Below, in pieces: positions 4,894 to 56,760 of a stretch of DNA of 64,000 bases. Below the pieces are notes generated by a model that made no database searches, was not told where the DNA came from, and saw only the letters and a program-made list of their open reading frames with translations. This stretch comes from a virus. Both the position numbers and the translations under genes were made by a program. The first letter of the stretch is position 1. Each line of letters begins with the position of its first letter. The stretch spans positions 1 through 64,000 of IMG/VR virus record IMGVR_UViG_3300032893_000763; one strand, written 5' to 3'.

Positions 4894-5050
4894 AGATCGT
4901 CACCGCCATCCGCGTCGGCTCCGTCGCCGTGTATCGACCCGGTTCCGCGTACAGCGCCGCAGTCGCGCGGGCAGGCTGCGCGGCGAGATCAGCCTTGGTC
5001 GGCTTCCGCTTCCTCGCGGCCGAGCGGTCGGGTGCGTTCAACGTCCCCAC
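4886..5050 (-). CDS. Hypothetical basic protein, 54 aa
   Basis: GTG start at 5050 lies inside the end of the 34-aa membrane gene. The protein is basic (RSAARKRKPTKADL) with a strand-forming C-terminus. The start is inferred from operon packing; function unknown. Confidence 0.45.
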   Translation of the reverse strand: MGTLNAPDRSAARKRKPTKADLAAQPARATAALYAEPGRYTATEPTRMAVTIYA

Positions 5051-5142
5051 CGTCGATCCACACGACGCCCCTGGACTGCGACGATGCCTACCGCGACGAG
5101 CGCGACGATGAGCACGACAGCGCAGACGATGTAGTCGAGCAT
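5038..5142 (-). CDS. Mini membrane protein, 34 aa
   Basis: One hydrophobic helix (IVCAVVLIVALVAVGIVAV) followed by a basic tail (GRRVDRRWGR), a typical inside-positive single-pass topology. Overlaps the next gene by 13 bp. Function unknown. Confidence 0.5.
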   Translation of the reverse strand: MLDYIVCAVVLIVALVAVGIVAVQGRRVDRRWGR

Positions 5143-5178
5143 CACGCACGACCCTTCGCGGCCTTGGAATGGTCTGAA

Positions 5179-5469
5179 TCAGCCGACACGCTCGACCTCC
5201 TGCCCGATGTTGCCGTTGTCGAGCCGGACGAGCTTGTGCGTCTCACGGTGGACGCGGTAGCCGTCGTTCCACAGCCGCTCGTAGAGATCGGCAGCGTGGG
5301 ACTCATCGTTCGCGTCGATGACGACCTTGTGCGTGGTCATCATCACGCGCTTGTTTGCGGCCTTATCTATGGGTTCGCTGCCCGAAGTCGGCGGAGGCAA
5401 AGGGGGAGCCTTACGACCGTTCGCGGCCTTGGAGGGGCCGCGATCACAACTCTGTCCGCTTTCAATCAT
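5179..5469 (-). CDS. Hypothetical protein, 96 aa
   Basis: ATG at 5469 overlaps the upstream stop (ATGA). The N-terminal ~40 residues are Pro/Ser/Lys-rich; the folded part starts around MMTTHKVVIDANDESHAADL. A TTGCAA-N17-TACAGT box ends 6 nt before the ATG, so a leaderless transcript is also possible. Confidence 0.6.
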   Translation of the reverse strand: MIESGQSCDRGPSKAANGRKAPPLPPPTSGSEPIDKAANKRVMMTTHKVVIDANDESHAADLYERLWNDGYRVHRETHKLVRLDNGNIGQEVERVG

Positions 5470-13193: not shown

Positions 13194-13480
13194 GATCCCT
13201 CGAACGAGTGAAACCCGAAACCGAGGCGAAACCGAGGCGAAACCGAGAGCCCGATGTGACTCAACCATGCCTCTTTCCTCCTCTCTACCATGATTTCAGG
13301 GTTTCATTGTAGATATACCTCTACGTGCGTGCGTGCGAGCGGCGATTTTCTAGGGCTTCCCGGTCGGTAGTACCCATTCTGAAACCGATGATCCTGAAAC
13401 ACCTGATTTCCCTGCAAACGGGCACTTTCCGGGCCTCTACGAAACCCGATCTAAAATCCGGGCCGGATCGGCGGTGGGCT
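13194..13480. repeat. Iteron-like GAAACC repeats in the divergent region (possible origin/control region)
   Basis: Tandem 11-bp units of GAAACCGAGGC at 13,208-13,251. More GAAACC/GGTTTC copies follow at ~13,302, 13,380, 13,395 and 13,440, and a reversed GATCTAAAATCC lies at 13,448. A GTAGA..TCTAC inverted repeat and GTGC repeats are near 13,311-13,335. No convincing gene is present between 13,124 and 13,681. Position between divergent arms suggests replication initiation or transcriptional control. Confidence 0.45.
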
Positions 13481-16505: not shown

Positions 16506-16635
16506 GCGTCGGCGTACCGGGTAAACCGCAAGCCCCCGTTAGGCGCTCAAGCCGGTGCGGATGGGTGAAGGCCGGTTGGCAGGTAGCGGCTACCCCCGAG
16601 CACGAGAGCCCCGGTGTGGTCATCGGGGCTCTCCA
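16500..16635 (+). ncRNA. Candidate small RNA with promoter and hairpin end
   Basis: A TGCTACACT extended -10 box (~16,498-16,506) precedes ~125 nt of non-coding sequence ending in a perfect stem, GAGAGCCCCG, 10-nt loop, CGGGGCTCTC (~16,604-16,633). The same -10 sequence precedes the tmRNA and another candidate RNA at 24.5 kb. No protein start or ORF fits. Confidence 0.5.
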
Positions 16636-16636
16636 C

Positions 16637-16665
16637 TTGCAGAGTCGGCGCAGCGTGTGTATGGT
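16637..16665 (+). promoter_or_regulatory. Sigma70-like promoter
   Basis: TTGCAG (16,637-16,642), 17-nt spacer, TATGGT (16,660-16,665), followed by an AACTTGGAGG ribosome site for the gene at 16,696. Confidence 0.7.
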
Positions 16666-16695
16666 GCGCTCGACCACACAAACTTGGAGGTACGC

Positions 16696-19987: not shown

Positions 19988-20193
19988 CGACCGTCGTGCA
20001 CGTTCGCATCCTGGACGGCTTCCAGGAGGGCCGCATCGGAGTGGTCGTGCCGAAGGAGGAACTCCCCGAGGCGATCCGCGAGAAGTGGGAGGTCGCGGTG
20101 GCGGTCGAGCACTACGCTATCCCCGGCATCCAGGTCGGCGTCTACGGCTACAACGGCGACGAGCTTGAGCTTATGCGGGCGGAGCAGGTGTGA
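19984..20193 (+). CDS. Hypothetical small beta protein, 69 aa
   Basis: MTTVVHVRILDGFQEGRIGV and VAVEHYAIPGIQVGVYGYNG; mostly strands. Coupled by overlaps. Confidence 0.55.
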   Translation: MTTVVHVRILDGFQEGRIGVVVPKEELPEAIREKWEVAVAVEHYAIPGIQVGVYGYNGDELELMRAEQV

Positions 20194-20363
20194 GCGCACT
20201 GCGCGATTGGGCGTGCGAGTGCACGTCGAGGCGCTGCCGGGAGCGGATCTACCTGACGACCCGCGAGTACGGTAGGCTCTCGGCGCTCGGGCGAGTGGTG
20301 ACGCCGGAGCACAAGGACGGCGAGGTCGTTGCCCGCGTGCGCACGGCGGTCGTGGTACGCTGA
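20190..20363 (+). CDS. Small Cys protein, 57 aa
   Basis: GTG start. CECTSRRCRERIYLTTREYG resembles a recurring small actinobacterial pattern (C.C...C.E.I.LT..EY) with a following GxVVTPEH turn. Function of that family is not known to me. Confidence 0.5.
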   Translation: MSALRDWACECTSRRCRERIYLTTREYGRLSALGRVVTPEHKDGEVVARVRTAVVVR

Positions 20364-20367
20364 GGCC

Positions 20368-20529
20368 GTGTCCGACCATCCTCTCGCGGGCGGGCCTCTG
20401 CGGCCCGATCAGGTTCGCTGCCCCGACGTGATCCCTCCGTGGATGACGCTCGCGGCCGACAACACCTTCCGCCTCTGCGGCATGTGCGGCGAGCGCATCC
20501 AGGACTGCGACTGCGCCGACGACTCCTAG
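20368..20529 (+). CDS. Small zinc-ribbon protein, 53 aa
   Basis: GTG start 6 nt after a TACGCT -10 box. Ends with CGMCGERIQDCDC, a zinc-knuckle-like cluster. Last gene of the operon. Confidence 0.5.
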   Translation: MSDHPLAGGPLRPDQVRCPDVIPPWMTLAADNTFRLCGMCGERIQDCDCADDS

Positions 20530-20622
20530 CCGGAGCATGAGGAAGGGAGAGACTCGACCTCCGGGGTGTGGCGGGTGAGCCACAGAAACTTGCTCTTGCT
20601 CCCGGTGGGAATCTCTCCCTAT
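20530..20622 (-). ncRNA. Structured small RNA driven by a palindrome-GATAC promoter
   Basis: No ORF fits. Minus-strand promoter 3 would start transcription at 20,622. The sequence then folds: GGGAGAGA pairs with TCTCTCCC (8 bp), enclosing CCGGG/CCCGG and TGTGGC/GCCACA hairpins, and a pyrimidine-rich stretch (CCCTTCCTC) follows. The match of promoter position to the base of the outer stem is the main support. Confidence 0.6.
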
Positions 20623-20675
20623 GCCCCAAGTATCGGCGGCTAGCCCGGACGGGGCAATCCCCCGTTCGAGTGGTT
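20623..20675 (-). promoter_or_regulatory. Palindrome-GATAC promoter 3 (minus strand)
   Basis: Reading on the minus strand: box CACTCGAACGGGGGATTG, 33 nt, then GCCGATACTTGGGGC followed by ATA instead of ATG. Transcribes the structured small RNA. Confidence 0.65.
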
Positions 20676-20694
20676 GCGCGATAGACTCGGAGAC

Positions 20695-23445
20695 GTGAGC
20701 AACGAGTACGATCTCCCGCCGATCCCCGGCGGCGGCATCTCCGGCGAGGAGGGCAACGTCCCCGGCTATACGTGGGGCGGCTCCGACGCGGGCCAGGCCG
20801 AACTCGAAGCCGCGAAGGCCGCGCTCGTCCACACGCCGCTCGGCGGCAAGCGCATCGACGGCCGTCCGCAGGCGCAAGGCTTCGCGGGCATCGGCAAGCA
20901 GGTCGAGGCCCCGGCACCGCCCGGTCAGCCCCCGACAAGCTCTCCCTTCGTGGAGAGCCATCTCATGCTTCCGCAGTCCGGCACCGACGCGGTGAACAGC
21001 GCGATCTCGACGCTCTACGACACCTACGGCGGCACGGTGCCCGCAGGCGCGGTCATCATGCTGAGCTACGTCGTCACCGACGGCAACGACGACCTCGTGG
21101 CCGACCCCGGCTACCAGGCGTTCCCTCCGCCGGAGGTCAGCCCGGTGGGCCGCTACGACCGTGCGATCCAGGACGCCTACGTCACGGGCGATCTCGGATG
21201 GGTGGACGGTCATGCCGTCGGATACGCCGCGTACAACTACACGGCGGATCAGATCGTGTACGTGGGTACAGTCTCCGTCGCCAACGAGGACGGCACCGTC
21301 ACGCTCGTGCCGGTCTACTCGACCGAGCCCGGCCTCGGCGCTTCGGGCGCGACCGGCGAGCCCATCGCAGGCCCCGGCCTGGAGTTCCCGCCTCCGGCGA
21401 CCACCGATCCGGCCACAGGCGAGAGCATCGCGGTGCAGGGCAGCCCGGTCTACGCGATGGGCACGCTCGCGGCGGACGCCCCGTACCTCTACAACGTCAT
21501 CGGGGATCTCCTCCCGAGCCAGGCGGGGCCGACCTACCCCGCGAGCGAGGCAGTCCTCATCGGTTGGATCTCCTCGTCCAACGCCGATGGCTTCACCGCA
21601 GGCACCTACTCCATGCTCGCGGCGGGCGACTCCGGCAACTACAGCTTCGGCAACTGCGCCATCGACTACGCGAACAACATCATCGCCTGGACGAAGCCGT
21701 CGCAGGCGGACGCCGTTGCTCCGTACGCCGGGTACGTCTCGATGATCTCCGTCCTCAACCCGGACGAGTCGATCACGAAAATCTACATCTTCGTCACGGA
21801 GCCGGGCATCGGCGTCGATGTGGCGGGCGACGGCACGGCGACCCCGGTGCACTACATCGACCAGGGCTTCACGGTGCATCCCGGCAACCCGATCACGGGT
21901 GCTCCGGCGACCACGACCACCGACTACTCGACGCTCACCATCAACGGGCCGGAGCCGTGGACGAACAACGTGCCCGACCCGCCCGACCCCACCAACCCGG
22001 ACAACACGCCGACGACACCTACCCCGGACAACGCCTACACGGACACCTTCACGTTCTCGTTCGATGACGGCGACAAGGTGCTGCCGTCGGCGCTGTGGTG
22101 GGCGGTCGAGTTGATCGTGGAGAAGATCCAGGGCGGCACGTCCGGTGTTCCGGGCGCGGCCCACATCGGCGTTGCGATCCCGTACATCCCCGACCCCACG
22201 GGCATCGCGGATCTCACGTGGCCGGACTTCGACCTCGCGGATGCCTGGGTCACGGATACGCCGTGGCTCTACGACAACGAGTTCATCTTCCCGACACAGG
22301 ACGACGCGAACGCCGACCCGAACGTGATGGCGACCAACTGGCCGACGGACACGAACATCGGGCCGCTCACGAGTAACCTGTGGGGCTATCTCGGCACGGT
22401 CAACAGCATCGCGTTCTTCTCGACGCTGCCGGGTGAGGCGGTCGTGCTCGACACGAGCGACCCTGCGAACCCCGTCCTGGAGCCCGACCCCAACTACACG
22501 ACCAACGACAACCAGGAGCAGGTCATCTATCAGACCGGCCTCTGGACGCCGACGGCGATCACAGGCGCAGGCGGGCCGTGGGCGGACTTCACGCTCGGGG
22601 CGCTCGCGGAGAACGGCAGCCTTCCGCACAGCACACTCGTGGTCAACCAGGGCGGCGGCTTGTTTGCCGACCTCACGCTCGACGGCTCGACCTCGAACAC
22701 CGTGCTCATCTCCCGGTGGGATACGAACGACGATCCGGGCGATGCGGTCATCGCAGACATCGGGGCCACCCCCAACGCCTTCGTGTGGACGCTCACCGAT
22801 GAGATCACGGCATCGGAGGCGGACACCTTCACGTTCTCGGACTGGCACAAGGTCTACTGGATTCCTGACGATCCGAACACGCCGGACGGCTCGGGCACGC
22901 TTTCCGCGTCGGGCACGAGCGATCAGTGGGTCGGCATGTCCGCCATCTTCACGGCGTCGGGCTCGAACGGCGACTCGACCCTCGGAGACAACCTGTTCCT
23001 GACGCACGCCGACCCGAACGCGAACCTTCCGTCGAACTGGACGTACGACCCGAGCACGGCGATGAGCGATCCGGGCAACGGCAAGATCCGCTTCTCCATC
23101 GCGGAGGACGCTCTCGCTGACAACGCCAACAACCTCGTGACGATTCAGATTGCGATTTCGGTGCACGACGTGGACGGCAACGATCAGACGGCGAACCTGC
23201 TCGGGAACATCAACTACGGCGAGACAGACCCCGGGCACGGCGAGGGCATGTCCGGCAACGATGGGATATGGGCGTGGGGGCCGGTGCACGGCACGAACGA
23301 CACGTCCGGTGTCGGCGTGACCTCGACCTACGTCTACGAGGATCACGGCTCGTGGCTCCTGTTCCAGATGGCCGACTACAGTCTTGCGGGCAGCATCGAC
23401 CACTCAGCGGGCGGCGTCGAAGTCGTAGCGGTGCCGGGAGCGTAG
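20695..23445 (+). CDS. Large putative virion protein, 916 aa
   Basis: Starts at GTG 20,695, 7 nt after TAGACT (20,682-20,687), so probably leaderless. Rich in Asp, Thr, Pro and Gly, almost free of Cys, with many beta-like segments (NEDGTVTLVPVYSTEPG) and a Pro/Thr hinge (PDPPDPTNPDNTPTTPTPDN). Repeated phrases such as DTFTFSFDDGDKV and ADTFTFSDWHKVYW suggest two related beta domains. Position ahead of the terminase and composition suggest a structural or adhesion protein; no family recognised. Confidence 0.7.
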   Translation: MSNEYDLPPIPGGGISGEEGNVPGYTWGGSDAGQAELEAAKAALVHTPLGGKRIDGRPQAQGFAGIGKQVEAPAPPGQPPTSSPFVESHLMLPQSGTDAVNSAISTLYDTYGGTVPAGAVIMLSYVVTDGNDDLVADPGYQAFPPPEVSPVGRYDRAIQDAYVTGDLGWVDGHAVGYAAYNYTADQIVYVGTVSVANEDGTVTLVPVYSTEPGLGASGATGEPIAGPGLEFPPPATTDPATGESIAVQGSPVYAMGTLAADAPYLYNVIGDLLPSQAGPTYPASEAVLIGWISSSNADGFTAGTYSMLAAGDSGNYSFGNCAIDYANNIIAWTKPSQADAVAPYAGYVSMISVLNPDESITKIYIFVTEPGIGVDVAGDGTATPVHYIDQGFTVHPGNPITGAPATTTTDYSTLTINGPEPWTNNVPDPPDPTNPDNTPTTPTPDNAYTDTFTFSFDDGDKVLPSALWWAVELIVEKIQGGTSGVPGAAHIGVAIPYIPDPTGIADLTWPDFDLADAWVTDTPWLYDNEFIFPTQDDANADPNVMATNWPTDTNIGPLTSNLWGYLGTVNSIAFFSTLPGEAVVLDTSDPANPVLEPDPNYTTNDNQEQVIYQTGLWTPTAITGAGGPWADFTLGALAENGSLPHSTLVVNQGGGLFADLTLDGSTSNTVLISRWDTNDDPGDAVIADIGATPNAFVWTLTDEITASEADTFTFSDWHKVYWIPDDPNTPDGSGTLSASGTSDQWVGMSAIFTASGSNGDSTLGDNLFLTHADPNANLPSNWTYDPSTAMSDPGNGKIRFSIAEDALADNANNLVTIQIAISVHDVDGNDQTANLLGNINYGETDPGHGEGMSGNDGIWAWGPVHGTNDTSGVGVTSTYVYEDHGSWLLFQMADYSLAGSIDHSAGGVEVVAVPGA

Positions 23446-24703: not shown

Positions 24704-24785
24704 CGCAGCCCGCCGGTCACGGGTTGCATCGGGTGAAGGCAGCGCGGGCTCTCTGTCCAGGGGGAGCCCGCTGCGCCTTCTTCTG
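24704..24785 (+). ncRNA. Candidate ~80-nt non-coding RNA
   Basis: Lies between a good promoter and a terminator-like hairpin (GCAGC-GC-GGGCTC paired with GAGCCCGCTGC at 24,739-24,774) followed by GCCTTCTTCT. No ORF. Contains GGGTGAAGGC, also found in the candidate RNA at 16.56 kb. Confidence 0.5.
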
Positions 24786-24819
24786 ATGCGAACGGGTGTT
24801 CGCCTGCTAGACTCTGGAC

Positions 24820-25308
24820 ATGCCTCCGGCGAACACACGCCACGTCAAGGGCAGCCCCCTCACGCCGCACGTCAAGACGCGGGTGGCCGAGTTGATCGGC
24901 ATGGGGCTCTCGCATGTCGAAGCGGGCGGCGCTTGCAACGTCTCCGAGAAGTCCGTCGAGCGGATCTTGGTGGAGCCCGAGTACCGCAAGCTCGCGGACG
25001 ACATCAAGCAGCGGCACCGCACGTCGATGGGCGTCGAGGCGGCGCAGGCTGTGCGCGATCTCCTCACGGCGGTGGACAAGGACGGCAACCCCGACCTCGC
25101 CAAGCGGGCCAAGGGCGCGGAGTTGTACGCACGCAACCCCGAGAGGCTCGACGCTGTGGACGACGACGACGACGACACCGGGATGCTGCCGGGCGTAGTC
25201 TTACGCTTCCCGCACCCGAGCATCCCCGACGAAGCCGCGCCGGTCATCTTCACCGAGGACGATCTCGTCTCCGCCGAGGTCACGCTCACCTTCCGCACCG
25301 AGGGCTAA
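24820..25308 (+). CDS. terS: Terminase small subunit-like protein
   Basis: 162 residues. VAELIGMGLSHVEAGGACNV with SEKSVERILVEPEYRKLADD forms the N-terminal helix-turn-helix expected of TerS; a helical region and an acidic stretch (DDDDDD) follow. The ATG is 7 nt after TAGACT, hence probably leaderless. It directly precedes the large subunit (1-bp overlap). It should recognise phage DNA for packaging. Assignment rests on HTH plus position. Confidence 0.7.
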   Translation: MPPANTRHVKGSPLTPHVKTRVAELIGMGLSHVEAGGACNVSEKSVERILVEPEYRKLADDIKQRHRTSMGVEAAQAVRDLLTAVDKDGNPDLAKRAKGAELYARNPERLDAVDDDDDDTGMLPGVVLRFPHPSIPDEAAPVIFTEDDLVSAEVTLTFRTEG

Positions 25309-29876: not shown

Positions 29877-30092
29877 ATGGCGAAGGCGAAGAAGACGCAG
29901 GCGGAGATCGTGCTCACGACCCTGGCTCGTCGCAAGACGGGCTTCACGGACGCGGAGTTGATCGAGGCCACCGGGATCACGTTCGCGGACACGATCCGCT
30001 CGACGCTCAAGCGTGCGGGCAAGGTCGTCGCGGTCGGCACCAAGACCGACAAGACGACGGGCCGCACCGTCAAGACGTGGGGCGTGGCGTAG
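29877..30092 (+). CDS. Small helix-turn-helix-like protein, 71 aa
   Basis: MAKAKKTQAEIVLTTLARRK, a winged-helix-like helix pair (FTDAELIEATGITFADTIRS) and a wing (GKVVAVGTKTDKTTGRTVKT). Ribosome site GAAGGGAGGGA; TGCTACTCT extended -10 upstream. Candidate DNA-binding regulator; target unknown. Confidence 0.6.
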   Translation: MAKAKKTQAEIVLTTLARRKTGFTDAELIEATGITFADTIRSTLKRAGKVVAVGTKTDKTTGRTVKTWGVA

Positions 30093-30168
30093 GCCCGCCC
30101 CCCCGCGCACGCACGGCTAGGCGATACGACCGTGTGGGAGTCAACAGGCCGATCTCCCCGGCCACCGA

Positions 30169-30195: not shown

Positions 30196-30516
30196 CTATT
30201 CGGGCTCGTGGACGGCGGCAGCGAAGGCGAAGAAGTCGTCCATGATGCCCTCGATGGTGGGGTCGAGGAACTGCGCGAGCAGCTTCCCGTCCCGCGACCG
30301 GCGCACCTGCGAGGAGACGATCCTGCCTCCGACAAGCTCCTGCGCGAGGACGACGGCACCACGGTAGCTCGGGAGGCCCGTCACCGTCTTGCACGTCATG
30401 TCGTCGCGGAGGAACCGCACTGTGTAGTTGTCTGTCATGCCAGGGAGTCTCTCCGCGAGCGCCTCCTTCTTACGCCGGTTGCAGTCGGGGCAGTTGATCG
30501 GAAGGCGGATGTCCAC
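30196..30516 (-). CDS. Hypothetical protein with CPDC motif, 106 aa
   Basis: GTG start at 30,516 just after a TAGGGT -10 (leaderless). NCPDCNRRKKEALAERL is a half zinc knuckle, then DNYTVRFLRDDMTCKTVTGL and a helical C-terminus. An internal ATG (MTDNYTVRF) is an alternative start. Divergent from promoter 5, with which it shares the palindrome. Confidence 0.55.
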   Translation of the reverse strand: MDIRLPINCPDCNRRKKEALAERLPGMTDNYTVRFLRDDMTCKTVTGLPSYRGAVVLAQELVGGRIVSSQVRRSRDGKLLAQFLDPTIEGIMDDFFAFAAAVHEPE

Positions 30517-30518
30517 AA

Positions 30519-30570
30519 TATCACCCTATCGGGTGATGCACTCTTGGCGCAGACGGCCGATACTTGGGAC
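30519..30570 (+). promoter_or_regulatory. Palindrome-GATAC promoter 5
   Basis: ATCACCCTATCGGGTGAT (perfect arms), 32 nt, GCCGATACTTGGGAC before ATG 30,571. The same palindrome lies at the start of the divergent minus-strand gene. Confidence 0.8.
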
Positions 30571-31965: not shown

Positions 31966-32618
31966 CCGAACAGGCGCTTCCAGAAGCCGGGGCTCTCTAC
32001 GGGCTCCGGCTTCTGTGCGGGCTCTACGATGTAGCGCGGGAAGTCGAGGCGCTCGAAGCCCTGGCCCATGTGCTCCGCGAGCACCACGAGCCCGCGTGCG
32101 AGCCCGTCGAGCCGCTCCAGGACTTCGGCGTGCTGCTCGTGCATGTCCCGAGCCACGGCCGCGATCAGGGCCTCCAGGGCCTCGGTGTCGAGCCCCTCGA
32201 CCACGGAGGGGTCGAACGTCTCAAGCTTCGGGCCGTAGTCCTTCTCGACCAACTCCTCCCCGAGGTCGAACTCGTCCTCGGCCTCTGCCTCGGCCTCATC
32301 ACCGACCTCGAAGGGCTCGTCGGCGTCGGCGGCTTCGCGGGTGCCCGGCTGCGTGCCGGTGTAGTCCGTGTAGTCCATCTCGACCACCACGCCCGCCGCC
32401 TCGGCCGATCCCCGGAAGGAGCGACGGCCGCGAGCTTCGGCAGCTTGTGCCGACCGGCCCACACCGACGCCTTCGAGATTGTCGGCCGCGCCCGGCTGCC
32501 TGCCGTGGATCACACGCTCTCCGGGCTTGTGCGGGTCTACCTCGCCCGCAAGCACGAGTGCCCTGCGCTTGGCCTGGATACGGGCCGTGAGGTCTTGACT
32601 CTCTGCGTCCAGTCCCAT
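31962..32618 (-). CDS. Acidic hypothetical protein, 218 aa
   Basis: ATG at 32,618 lies 7 nt after TACACT, hence leaderless. Basic N-terminus (LTARIQAKRRALVLAGEVD), long acidic middle (VGDEAEAEAEDEFDLGEELV), helical coiled coil (ARDMHEQHAEVLERLDGLAR) and C-terminal FWKRLFG that could be amphipathic. On the opposite strand from the structural genes. No family recognised. Confidence 0.6.
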   Translation of the reverse strand: MGLDAESQDLTARIQAKRRALVLAGEVDPHKPGERVIHGRQPGAADNLEGVGVGRSAQAAEARGRRSFRGSAEAAGVVVEMDYTDYTGTQPGTREAADADEPFEVGDEAEAEAEDEFDLGEELVEKDYGPKLETFDPSVVEGLDTEALEALIAAVARDMHEQHAEVLERLDGLARGLVVLAEHMGQGFERLDFPRYIVEPAQKPEPVESPGFWKRLFG

Positions 32619-36769: not shown

Positions 36770-36876
36770 CGCCGGGAGGGAGCCGCTCCACTCGGTCGCC
36801 CGCGTGGGGCGGCCTCCTGGATGCGCGAGGCAATCGCGGAGACGACAGTGATGTGGGTGTTCTGTGAAGTGGTCAT
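36766..36876 (-). CDS. Short ORF under promoter 6, 36 aa
   Basis: MTTSQNTHITVVSAIASRIQ then a basic end. Leaderless from palindrome-GATAC promoter 6. May be the N-terminus of the 90-aa gene separated by a frameshift. Confidence 0.45.
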   Translation of the reverse strand: MTTSQNTHITVVSAIASRIQEAAPRGRPSGAAPSRR

Positions 36877-36930
36877 GTTCACAGTATCGGCCATATTCAC
36901 AGGTGTTGTGAATCACCCGAAAGAGTGAAG
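36877..36930 (-). promoter_or_regulatory. Palindrome-GATAC promoter 6 (minus strand)
   Basis: Minus strand: CACTCTTTCGGGTGATTC, 34 nt, GGCCGATACTGTGAAC directly before ATG 36,876. Confidence 0.7.
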
Positions 36931-36937
36931 ATGCGGC

Positions 36938-37004
36938 GGCGCGGAGCGGGCCTCGAACCCGCAACCTCCGATGCCTCGGGCTCTACCTCTTGAGCTACCC
37001 GCCC
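36938..37004 (-). tRNA. tRNA-like element with truncated anticodon arm
   Basis: D-arm GCTC-AAGAGGTA-GAGC, T-arm GCGGG-TTCGAGG-CCCGC and a 7-bp acceptor (one G.G mismatch, one G.U) are clear, but the anticodon arm is only CCGA-GGCA-TCGG plus AGGTT. The element is 67 nt instead of ~73-76. It therefore cannot present a normal 7-nt anticodon loop. Outside it, GCGGCG/CGCCGC extends the stem. Either a decayed elongator tRNA or a tRNA mimic. Confidence 0.55.
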
Positions 37005-37059
37005 GCCGCGTGCCGGTTGCACCCCGGCGGCGTCAGCCGGGAAGGAACCGGAAACCCTA

Positions 37060-37385
37060 TGGAGCCGGTGGGAATCGAACCCACGTCCGAACAGGTGGTG
37101 CGCTGGAAGTTGATAGCAGCTTCTTGGGGGCATGTGCCCTCCACCAGGGCAGCCGTCTCTCCGGCTCCGTAGTCCGCTCGTCTCTCCGAGCCGTCCTTCG
37201 CGTGGTGCCCTACGCGAACGAGGGAGCGAAGGCCGGGGACGCAGGCACGAGGCCCTTGATCCACGACTTCGCCGCGACGATCAGCTTGGTGATCGCACTT
37301 GACGTTGCCCTCCGGGCCGGTGCGGTAGGCCGCAACCCGCTGCCTTCTCACGTCCGTTCCTATCCGTCGAAGCCAGGTCGGCCCC
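37060..37385 (-). ncRNA. ssrA: tmRNA (ssrA)
   Basis: 5' end GGGGCCGACCTGGCTTCGAC and 3' end ACGTGGGTTCGATTCCCACC then GGCTCCA form the tRNA-like domain, with a 7-bp acceptor containing the G3.U70 alanine identity pair. A T-arm GTGGG-TTCGATT-CCCAC is present and CCA is not encoded. A tag frame runs from GCG at 37,296 to TAG at 37,210: 28 residues beginning AITKLIVAAK and ending FAPSFA. A TGCTACACT box ends 7 nt before the 5' end. tmRNA rescues stalled ribosomes and tags products for proteolysis. Confidence 0.9.
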
Positions 37386-37392
37386 GCGAGAG

Positions 37393-37400
37393 AGTGTAGC
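37393..37400 (-). promoter_or_regulatory. tmRNA promoter (-10)
   Basis: Extended -10 TGcTACACT (TACACT 37,393-37,398, minus strand), placing transcription start at the mature tmRNA 5' end. No good -35. Confidence 0.65.
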
Positions 37401-37404
37401 ACCC

Positions 37405-38186
37405 TCACGGGAGCCCCCGGCTCGATCTCAAGCGCATCTCCCTCTGTGCTGTGGTAGGTGCGGGCGTCGTGTGCGGCAGACTTGAAGCGAGTGGACTAGA
37501 GAGTCCGATGCTCCGTCGTCTCTACCACTCTACGGTTTTAGTCGAGGGCTCGCCGTACGCCCCCTTCCTCCCGCGTTACTCCGCCACACCGTCTAGGCGA
37601 TGCGCCATTCCGCGCCTACCATCGAGGTCTAAAGCGATGCACCAAGCGGGAGCGCAGCACCACGGCTCGCGTGCGCCGCGACTAGTGACACGTCGAAGGG
37701 AACTCTGCAAGCCCTGAGTGGCTCGCTTCCAATCGGTGTGCGACCTCGTACGTCCGTGCTGGCCGGGCTCCCGCTTGATTCCTACGAGACTTCCTCAAGT
37801 GTCCGCCACGCCGTCCTCTCTCGCCTACCCTACCCGTTCGTGCGCACTCCCGGTTACTCTCGGCTTGAGACTCTGACGCTTTACTGTTTCACTCGCCCGT
37901 ACGCCTCATCCTCGTACACCCTTCGTTCAGGGGTCGCCCTCGGTCTTCGCTGCTAGCCGGGGTCGTGGTCGTTAGCCGTCAGGGGTGTAGTCAACGGTGT
38001 GCTGGACGGTACCTCGCAGTGGCGGGCACTGGAGGAAGTCTCGTGAGTCTTCATCCGCGCGACCGTAGTCTGCTCCTTCGCGGTGGAGACAAGTGATAGA
38101 GGGGAGTTCCGCCTTCCGGCCAGTTTCCCGTATCCGCTTGCAAGCACATCATCGGGCCGAAGCCCCAAGCCTGCAATCCCTCGTAC
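37405..38186 (-). ncRNA. Candidate large structured RNA (~780 nt, GOLLD/ROOL-like context)
   Basis: No protein-like reading frame or ribosome site here. On the minus strand it starts after TTGACG-N18-TAGGAT and ends before the tmRNA promoter. Local folds include GGGC-UUCG-GCCC (38,155-38,166), CAGTG-GCGGG-CACTG (38,017-38,031), a 12-bp bulged stem (37,489-37,530), TAGGCG/CGCCTA (37,594-37,618) and GCC-GGAA-GGC. Purine-rich internal loops (GGGAAACTGG, GAGTGAAACAGTAAAG) are rRNA-like. GOLLD and ROOL RNAs are of this size and occur near phage tRNA genes; family membership is untested. Confidence 0.6.
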
Positions 38187-38191
38187 GAGTG

Positions 38192-38221
38192 ATCCTACTG
38201 GATTCGGGAAGGTTCCGTCAA
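38192..38221 (-). promoter_or_regulatory. Sigma70-like promoter for the large RNA
   Basis: Minus-strand TTGACG (38,216-38,221), 18-nt spacer, TAGGAT (38,192-38,197). It overlaps the stop of the phosphoesterase gene. Confidence 0.7.
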
Positions 38222-42384: not shown

Positions 42385-42436
42385 AATCACCCTTCCGGGG
42401 GATGGCCCCCTCTGCGCCAAGGCCGATACTTGGGGC
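42385..42436 (+). promoter_or_regulatory. Palindrome-GATAC promoter 7
   Basis: AATCACCCTTCCGGGGGATG, 32 nt, GGCCGATACTTGGGGC before ATG 42,437. Best match to the consensus. Confidence 0.8.
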
Positions 42437-47883: not shown

Positions 47884-48129
47884 ATGGCACACAACGTGAC
47901 ACGCACGTATCAGGTGGCGGCGCAGCCGTGGGTGGTCTGGACGACGAACAATGACCTCCACGCCTTCCTCGCTTCCCTGAACGGTGCCGGAGCCTCCGAT
48001 CTCGGTTCGGTCGAGGAGACGCTCGCGCTTTGGGCAGTGCAGGTACCGGATTCGACGGAGACGGATGCAGGCACCGCCTACATCGTCTCGTCGGAGACGT
48101 ACAAGCGTGTCCAGGCGGGTCGCTACTAG
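47884..48129 (+). CDS. Small head protein, 81 aa
   Basis: MAHNVTRTYQVAAQPWVVWT, ending ETDAGTAYIVSSETYKRVQA. 17 nt after the capsid gene with a GGAGGAGAC ribosome site. Possibly a head decoration protein; not recognised. Confidence 0.55.
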   Translation: MAHNVTRTYQVAAQPWVVWTTNNDLHAFLASLNGAGASDLGSVEETLALWAVQVPDSTETDAGTAYIVSSETYKRVQAGRY

Positions 48130-48157
48130 GCCACCCGGTCACCACGTGCAACGTCTG

Positions 48158-48183
48158 GAGAGGCCCCCGCAAGGGGGCCTCTC
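48158..48183 (+). terminator. Terminator of the capsid operon
   Basis: GAGAGGCCCCC, GCAA tetraloop, GGGGGCCTCTC, then TCGTTCTTGT. Confidence 0.8.
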
Positions 48184-48207
48184 TCGTTCTTGTGCTATCT
48201 TCCTCGA

Positions 48208-56661: not shown

Positions 56662-56730
56662 ACCGCGCGGGCCGACAGTCCGCTAAGGACGGGAGAGGCA
56701 GGGGACTCGATAGTCCATCCCGTCGCCCGA

Positions 56731-56752
56731 GAGCCCCGCGAGAGCGGGGCTC
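56731..56752. terminator. Terminator-like hairpin
   Basis: GAGCCCCGC, GAGA loop, GCGGGGCTC. Two TTCCGGGGAACC repeats follow at ~56,761 and ~56,790. Confidence 0.65.
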
Positions 56753-56760
56753 GTCGCGTC

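Follow-up and report, generated by a model that had tools for sequence, protein, structure and literature searches.

Small RNAs of actinobacterial phages turn up in RNA-seq data, but few have been assigned to a defined regulatory switch. Among the cluster A mycobacteriophages (L5, D29, StarStuff), a non-coding Pleft RNA and an intergenic 63-64 RNA have been described; the Pleft RNA is ~500 nt long, is processed to 100-400 nt, is very abundant, and is controlled by the repressor (PMC5712189). Cluster K phages carry start-associated sequences (SAS, GGGATAGGAGCCC), to which the ESAS adds 17-bp imperfect repeats and a variable spacer (PMC3203893). In Deinococcus-Thermus, leaderless genes adjacent to a -10 box are served by ordinary host promoters (PMC12340547).

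The locus considered here lies in the 93,768-base record of an uncultured phage; the window, the 64,000-nucleotide stretch that was analysed, comprises its bases 1-64,000. No near match to the record was found among 50,697 phage records. Two large relatives in IMG/VR were reached via their capsid and terminase proteins: G001 (92,362 bases, capsid 92% identical) and G002 (89,259 bases, capsid 62% identical). A capsid profile search returned no relatives beyond these. Genes were called with a simple codon-usage script rather than a trained gene finder. This script missed two short genes at 20190-20529, both of which we read by eye, and its rough calls give a median intergenic gap of 3 bp in the phage genome. 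A stretch of 1.76 kb from 63763 to the end of the window and on to record base 65525 holds no called gene and has a GC content of 0.82-0.86 in parts (90-base windows). Two conserved blocks, 29888-30100 and 32256-32399, were first taken for non-coding RNA and then rejected, as both fall inside called genes.

A palindrome-GATACT promoter family in three related phages

By reading every GATACT in the 93.8 kb, we found 12 promoter copies of one design in the phage genome. Each consists of an 18-bp palindrome (consensus ~ATCMCCC-N4-GGGKGAT, centred at about -42.5 to -43), ~21 bases, GATACT (usually after GCC), and then six bases. The -10 box of the family, gccGATACT, is placed at -12 to -7, six bases before +1. 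ATG occupies the exact +1 place in 11 of the 12 copies and opens frames of 36 to 301 codons; messages from these copies would be leaderless, with the A of ATG as their first base. Class II activators sit near -42.5 in bacterial promoters, and because the centre of the palindrome falls at this place, we infer that the promoters are of an activator type. The same design recurs in both relatives. G001 has five copies, all five with ATG after the six bases, and G002 uses GATAAT, with ATG at +1 in four copies; another operator-GATAAT copy in G002, at 71278, has no ATG at +1 and heads a gene with a Shine-Dalgarno site. The promoter pattern was not found when searched in GTDB genomes. This family, common to three related uncultured phages, is a firmer result than the RNA discussed below.

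The phage also has a second, plainer class of leaderless starts, with TAGA[AC]T or a similar box followed by six or seven bases and no palindrome. In a loose count over both classes, 35 of 164 called genes have a -10-like box at the right distance, against a baseline of 4.6% for all ATG and GTG triplets.

Operator palindromes occur in other settings as well. Those at 13195-13212 (minus strand) and, in G001, at 64448-64465 (minus strand) lie upstream of leadered genes, with no GATACT box at the family spacing, and possibly serve repression or autoregulation by the same regulator. Within the palindrome at 30520-30537 lies TAGGGT, a -10-like box that belongs to a divergent gene on the minus strand with GTG at 30516; a regulator bound at this site might switch on one gene while blocking the other.

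One more operator lies near a phage tmRNA gene. The region 36770-38217, 1.45 kb without called genes, opens on the minus strand with the near-perfect operator ATCACTCGTACGAGGGAT (38193-38176), which is followed by GATGAT at family spacing, but by no ATG; its start would fall at ~38141. The tmRNA gene (37060-37385, minus strand) was called by ARAGORN, scores 46.7 bits against Rfam RF00023 (cut-off 47), and has its own -10-like TACACT just upstream. The ~750 nt before it are possibly an unknown non-coding RNA. G001 likewise has an operator (5640, minus strand) upstream of its tmRNA, a counterpart at 4982-5309 (minus strand) that is 78% identical, scores 29.8 bits, and was missed by ARAGORN. A tRNA-like sequence at 36938-37004 (minus strand) scores 28.4 bits, under the Rfam cut-off of 29, and was not called by ARAGORN.

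The leftward copy and its neighbours

One family copy faces left in a 165-bp gap (20530-20694) that holds a hairpin, this promoter, its operator, a rightward -10 box, and little else (Table 1). The core of the leftward copy, GATACTtggggc, scores 18.2 bits and has gccGATACT six bases before +1. The operator is centred at about -43.5 from the predicted start, and the palindrome offset of -40 lies within the -38 to -41 of the other copies. Its right arm is perfect and its left arm departs once from ATC[AC]C[CT]C; 12 of the 18 bases match the consensus, and its 14.0 bits are the lowest of the 12. Using matrices built from the other 11 copies, core and operator together reach 32.2 bits, a value attained by none of 100 first-order Markov genomes (best, 22.6 bits), while the other family copies score 37 to 50 bits. 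The leftward copy is a genuine member of the family, but the weakest one, owing to the imperfect left arm of its operator. The first-pass annotation had assigned the RNA to the same regulon, and this assignment is well supported by the operator and the -10 box.

That annotation had also held that no protein starts at this copy, which we could confirm. The codon at +1 is ATA (20622-20620), as against ATG in the other 11 copies. The frame that begins with this ATA stays open for 355 codons against four plus-strand genes; its GC content by codon position is 0.70/0.62/0.74, compared with 0.64/0.46/0.90 in phage genes. Given this GC pattern and the antisense overlap with four genes, we rejected a minus-strand protein initiated at ATA or GTG. 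Judged by its sequence, the locus thus has the two attributes of a gene for a small non-coding phage RNA, a promoter of its own and no ORF.

The rightward and leftward promoters diverge from a shared operator, located at ~-39 to -21 relative to where the 916-aa gene starts. A single bound regulator could switch on the RNA and impede the 916-aa gene. Neither neighbouring protein could be assigned: the 53-aa protein had no Pfam match, the 916-aa protein had no Pfam or PHROG match, and searches with the latter in viral and phage collections found nothing. The 916-aa gene does have a partial homologue in G001 (79929-80522, 36% over ~200 aa). The corresponding gene start in G001 reads TCGATAGACT-CGATGT-ATG, with a -10 box plus six bases before the ATG. 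At this start in G001 there is no gap, the upstream frame runs past, and neither operator nor hairpin occurs; only one of the two phages thus has the cassette.

Table 1. Features in and around the gap that contains the leftward promoter copy.
Feature	Position	Strand	Remarks
Upstream gene, 53 aa, Cys-rich	20368..20529	+	preceded by TACGCT + 6 nt
Candidate small RNA, ~79-85 nt	20544..20622	-	3' end predicted
Predicted transcription start, A20622	20622..20622	-	placed by family spacing
-10 box gccGATACT, at -12 to -7	20629..20637	-	GATACT at 20634-20629
Operator palindrome ACCACTC-GAAC-GGGGGAT, 18 bp	20657..20674	-	read directly from the sequence
Rightward -10 box TAGACT (20682-20687) + 7 nt + GTG (20695)	20682..20697	+	leaderless-type promoter
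Downstream gene, 916 aa	20695..23445	+	partial homologue in G001

A branched hairpin at the predicted start

A 77-nt branched hairpin starts 2 bases past the predicted start. The parts of the candidate RNA are a 12-bp outer helix, inner helices, the asymmetric loop AGCAAGAGCAAGUUUC, and a terminal hairpin, UGUGGC-UCACCC-GCCACA. The outer helix pairs 20620-20609 with 20544-20555, including one G-U, and is followed by 2 bp (CC/GG) and then 5 bp (CCGGG/CCCGG). Enclosed by these helices are a solid 6-bp hairpin (20584-20567, UCACCC loop) and a marginal 2-bp hairpin (pair probability 0.73); all pair probabilities are near 1 except in this weak hairpin and in two end pairs. The first-pass annotation had described an 8-bp stem that encloses two further stems and whose base coincides with the predicted start. 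The outer helix proved to be longer, and one of the two inner stems is solid while the other is marginal. The coincidence held to within 2 bases of +1; the 93 nt from the start to the neighbouring gene leave a 77-nt hairpin ~17 possible offsets, so this near-coincidence is worth only ~1 in 6. The RNA had further been called antisense, which is right for its orientation; the hairpin itself is intergenic, and only a transcript that read through it would be antisense to the upstream genes.

The first 90 nt from 20622 fold with -41.4 kcal/mol, compared with -14.6 to -31.0 kcal/mol for the other eleven family transcripts. Compared with shuffled sequences, z is -5.1 on the minus strand and -2.7 on the plus strand, and 0.5% of GC-matched genome windows fold equally well. 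From 40,000 random 90-nt starts, 87 fold as well with a comparable stem (at least 8 bp, begun by the third base, and closed at least 60 nt away). The plus strand of the hairpin folds nearly as well as the minus strand, at -40.6 kcal/mol, and the strand assignment consequently rests on the promoter and not on the fold.

Eight other gaps hold hairpins with z of -3.6 to -6.0 and have no family promoter pointing at them; by the same mononucleotide-shuffle measure, the hairpin at the leftward promoter has z = -4.8. Most of the eight are long and nearly perfect, with small loops, and resemble terminators. A strong gap hairpin is ordinary in this phage, and the one at the leftward promoter stands out by its branches and interruptions and by having a promoter aimed at it. 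The gene at 24820 is preceded by a very strong ~64-nt hairpin (24721-24800; z -6.0, -50.4 kcal/mol), which is probably a terminator or another structured element. On neither strand is the hairpin at the leftward promoter followed by a T-run of the kind that marks intrinsic terminators, a test that does not cover terminators without a T-run. The 3' end of the RNA is therefore a guess.

Searches for relatives of the RNA gave no results. Rfam matched nothing in the region at the gathering score or up to E = 5, blastn against phages and plasmids found no homologue, and neither blastn nor a one-sequence covariance model found the RNA in the genomes of the relatives. Exact promoter-plus-RNA patterns were not found in IMG/VR. 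For the 16-nt loop and the tail, no exact complement of at least 13 nt exists elsewhere in the phage. A tRNA or tmRNA remnant at the hairpin was considered and rejected, as ARAGORN called neither.

Proposed mechanism and alternative explanations

The likeliest single explanation, towards which we lean on balance, is a small, stable and structured non-coding RNA of ~80-85 nt, made from the minus strand by the family promoter; a role as regulatory RNA is plausible. A dimeric regulator would bind the palindrome, which lies directly before a -10 box (GATACT) deviating from TAnnnT, and would recruit RNA polymerase as class II activators do, so that transcription would begin at A20622. The RNA would fold to a branched rod whose closing helix may protect it and help to end transcription near 20540, and a target could be met at the exposed 16-nt loop, the UCACCC loop, or the C/U-rich tail. 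The same bound operator, ~30 bp upstream of the divergent gene start, may reduce the rightward promoter during RNA synthesis.

We favour this small RNA because the promoter family is real, the leftward copy scores ~10 bits above the best simulation, its fold exceeds those of the other eleven transcripts, the ATA frame is non-coding, and the 165-bp gap stands in a tightly packed genome and has no equivalent in G001. The case is weakened by the missing homologue, the comparable hairpins elsewhere, the poorest left arm in the family, the lack of a T-run, and the plus-strand fold. In the main rival, the hairpin is mainly the terminator of a plus-strand operon (genes at ~13.7-20.5 kb) ahead of the 916-aa gene promoter, and the leftward transcript is short, terminated, and unimportant. 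Hairpins of equal strength do lie ahead of plus-strand genes (24721-24800, 16599-16678, 48125-48204, and 56677-56756 are examples), the foot of the stem is 14 nt past the stop codon of the 53-aa gene at 20529, and the plus-strand folding energy fits a terminator. However, most of the other hairpins are long near-perfect helices, whereas the hairpin at the leftward promoter has interruptions, a branched form, and an asymmetric loop of 16 nt. A terminator would also leave unexplained why a well-preserved -10 box and operator are aimed at the hairpin, and the T-run is lacking, so we consider this rival unlikely.

If transcription instead passed through the hairpin, a longer antisense RNA would run into the upstream plus-strand genes (20529 to ~19300) and damp them when the regulator is active. 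The orientation and position of the promoter would suit such an RNA, as would the lack of a recognisable T-tract terminator, but a strong hairpin stands less than 80 nt from the start, no end is marked further down, and the GC pattern of the long open frame on the minus strand is not that of a gene; we regard this as improbable. It is also distinctly improbable, in our judgement, that the leftward copy is a decayed duplicate which has lost its small gene, with ATG changed to ATA and the left operator arm eroding. The copy shares 82% over 44 nt, including GATACTTGGGGCAT, with the copy at 42425, and its operator is the weakest in the family. Yet the similarity of the two full promoters, though the highest, is within the range for copy pairs, the -10 core shows no decay (18.2 bits), and the sequence beyond the start is not random but unusually rich in structure. 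Finally, the operator might serve only the rightward 916-aa promoter, with the leftward -10 box being fortuitous. Its position relative to the rightward start would allow this, and the palindrome at 30520-30537 is an operator shared in a similar way, overlapping a divergent gene's -10 box. Because the leftward core box has both the sequence and the spacing of the family, and G001 has retained the rightward -10 box but has no operator there, we judge this very improbable.

A wider extension of the small RNA reading is that an activator-controlled regulon includes non-coding RNAs (the ~80-nt RNA and possibly the ~750-nt RNA ahead of the tmRNA) in addition to leaderless small genes, and that the operator shared by the ~80-nt RNA and the 916-aa gene silences the divergent promoter of the latter during RNA synthesis. 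Taken as a whole, this extension is rather doubtful.

Comparison with known systems

The promoter family resembles the cluster K start-associated sequences but is distinct from them. As with SAS and ESAS, a short repeated motif stands directly in front of many phage genes, in most cases with the same orientation and partly with upstream inverted repeats (PMC3203893); here, however, there is an 18-bp palindrome at a fixed distance, a -10 box, and a leaderless ATG at +1. The Deinococcus-Thermus leaderless genes similarly have a -10 box and then a start codon at fixed spacing (PMC12340547), whereas the phage family adds a palindromic operator and the leftward copy has no start codon.

As a phage gene for a short structured RNA, the candidate resembles the phage-encoded small regulatory RNAs that have been reviewed (PMC12197685). 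It shares more with the cluster A RNAs, which are also phage-encoded in high-GC actinobacterial phages, have no ORF and no known function, and are transcribed leftward from a defined phage promoter, there Pleft (PMC5712189). Unlike the Pleft RNA, our candidate is predicted to be ~80 nt long, and it has no sequence match in the phage collection. The RNA would join a known kind, the small RNAs of phages, of which those of the cluster A mycobacteriophages are an example. If real, it would be a phage RNA tied to an identifiable operator, with the same regulator governing eleven proteins and one RNA.
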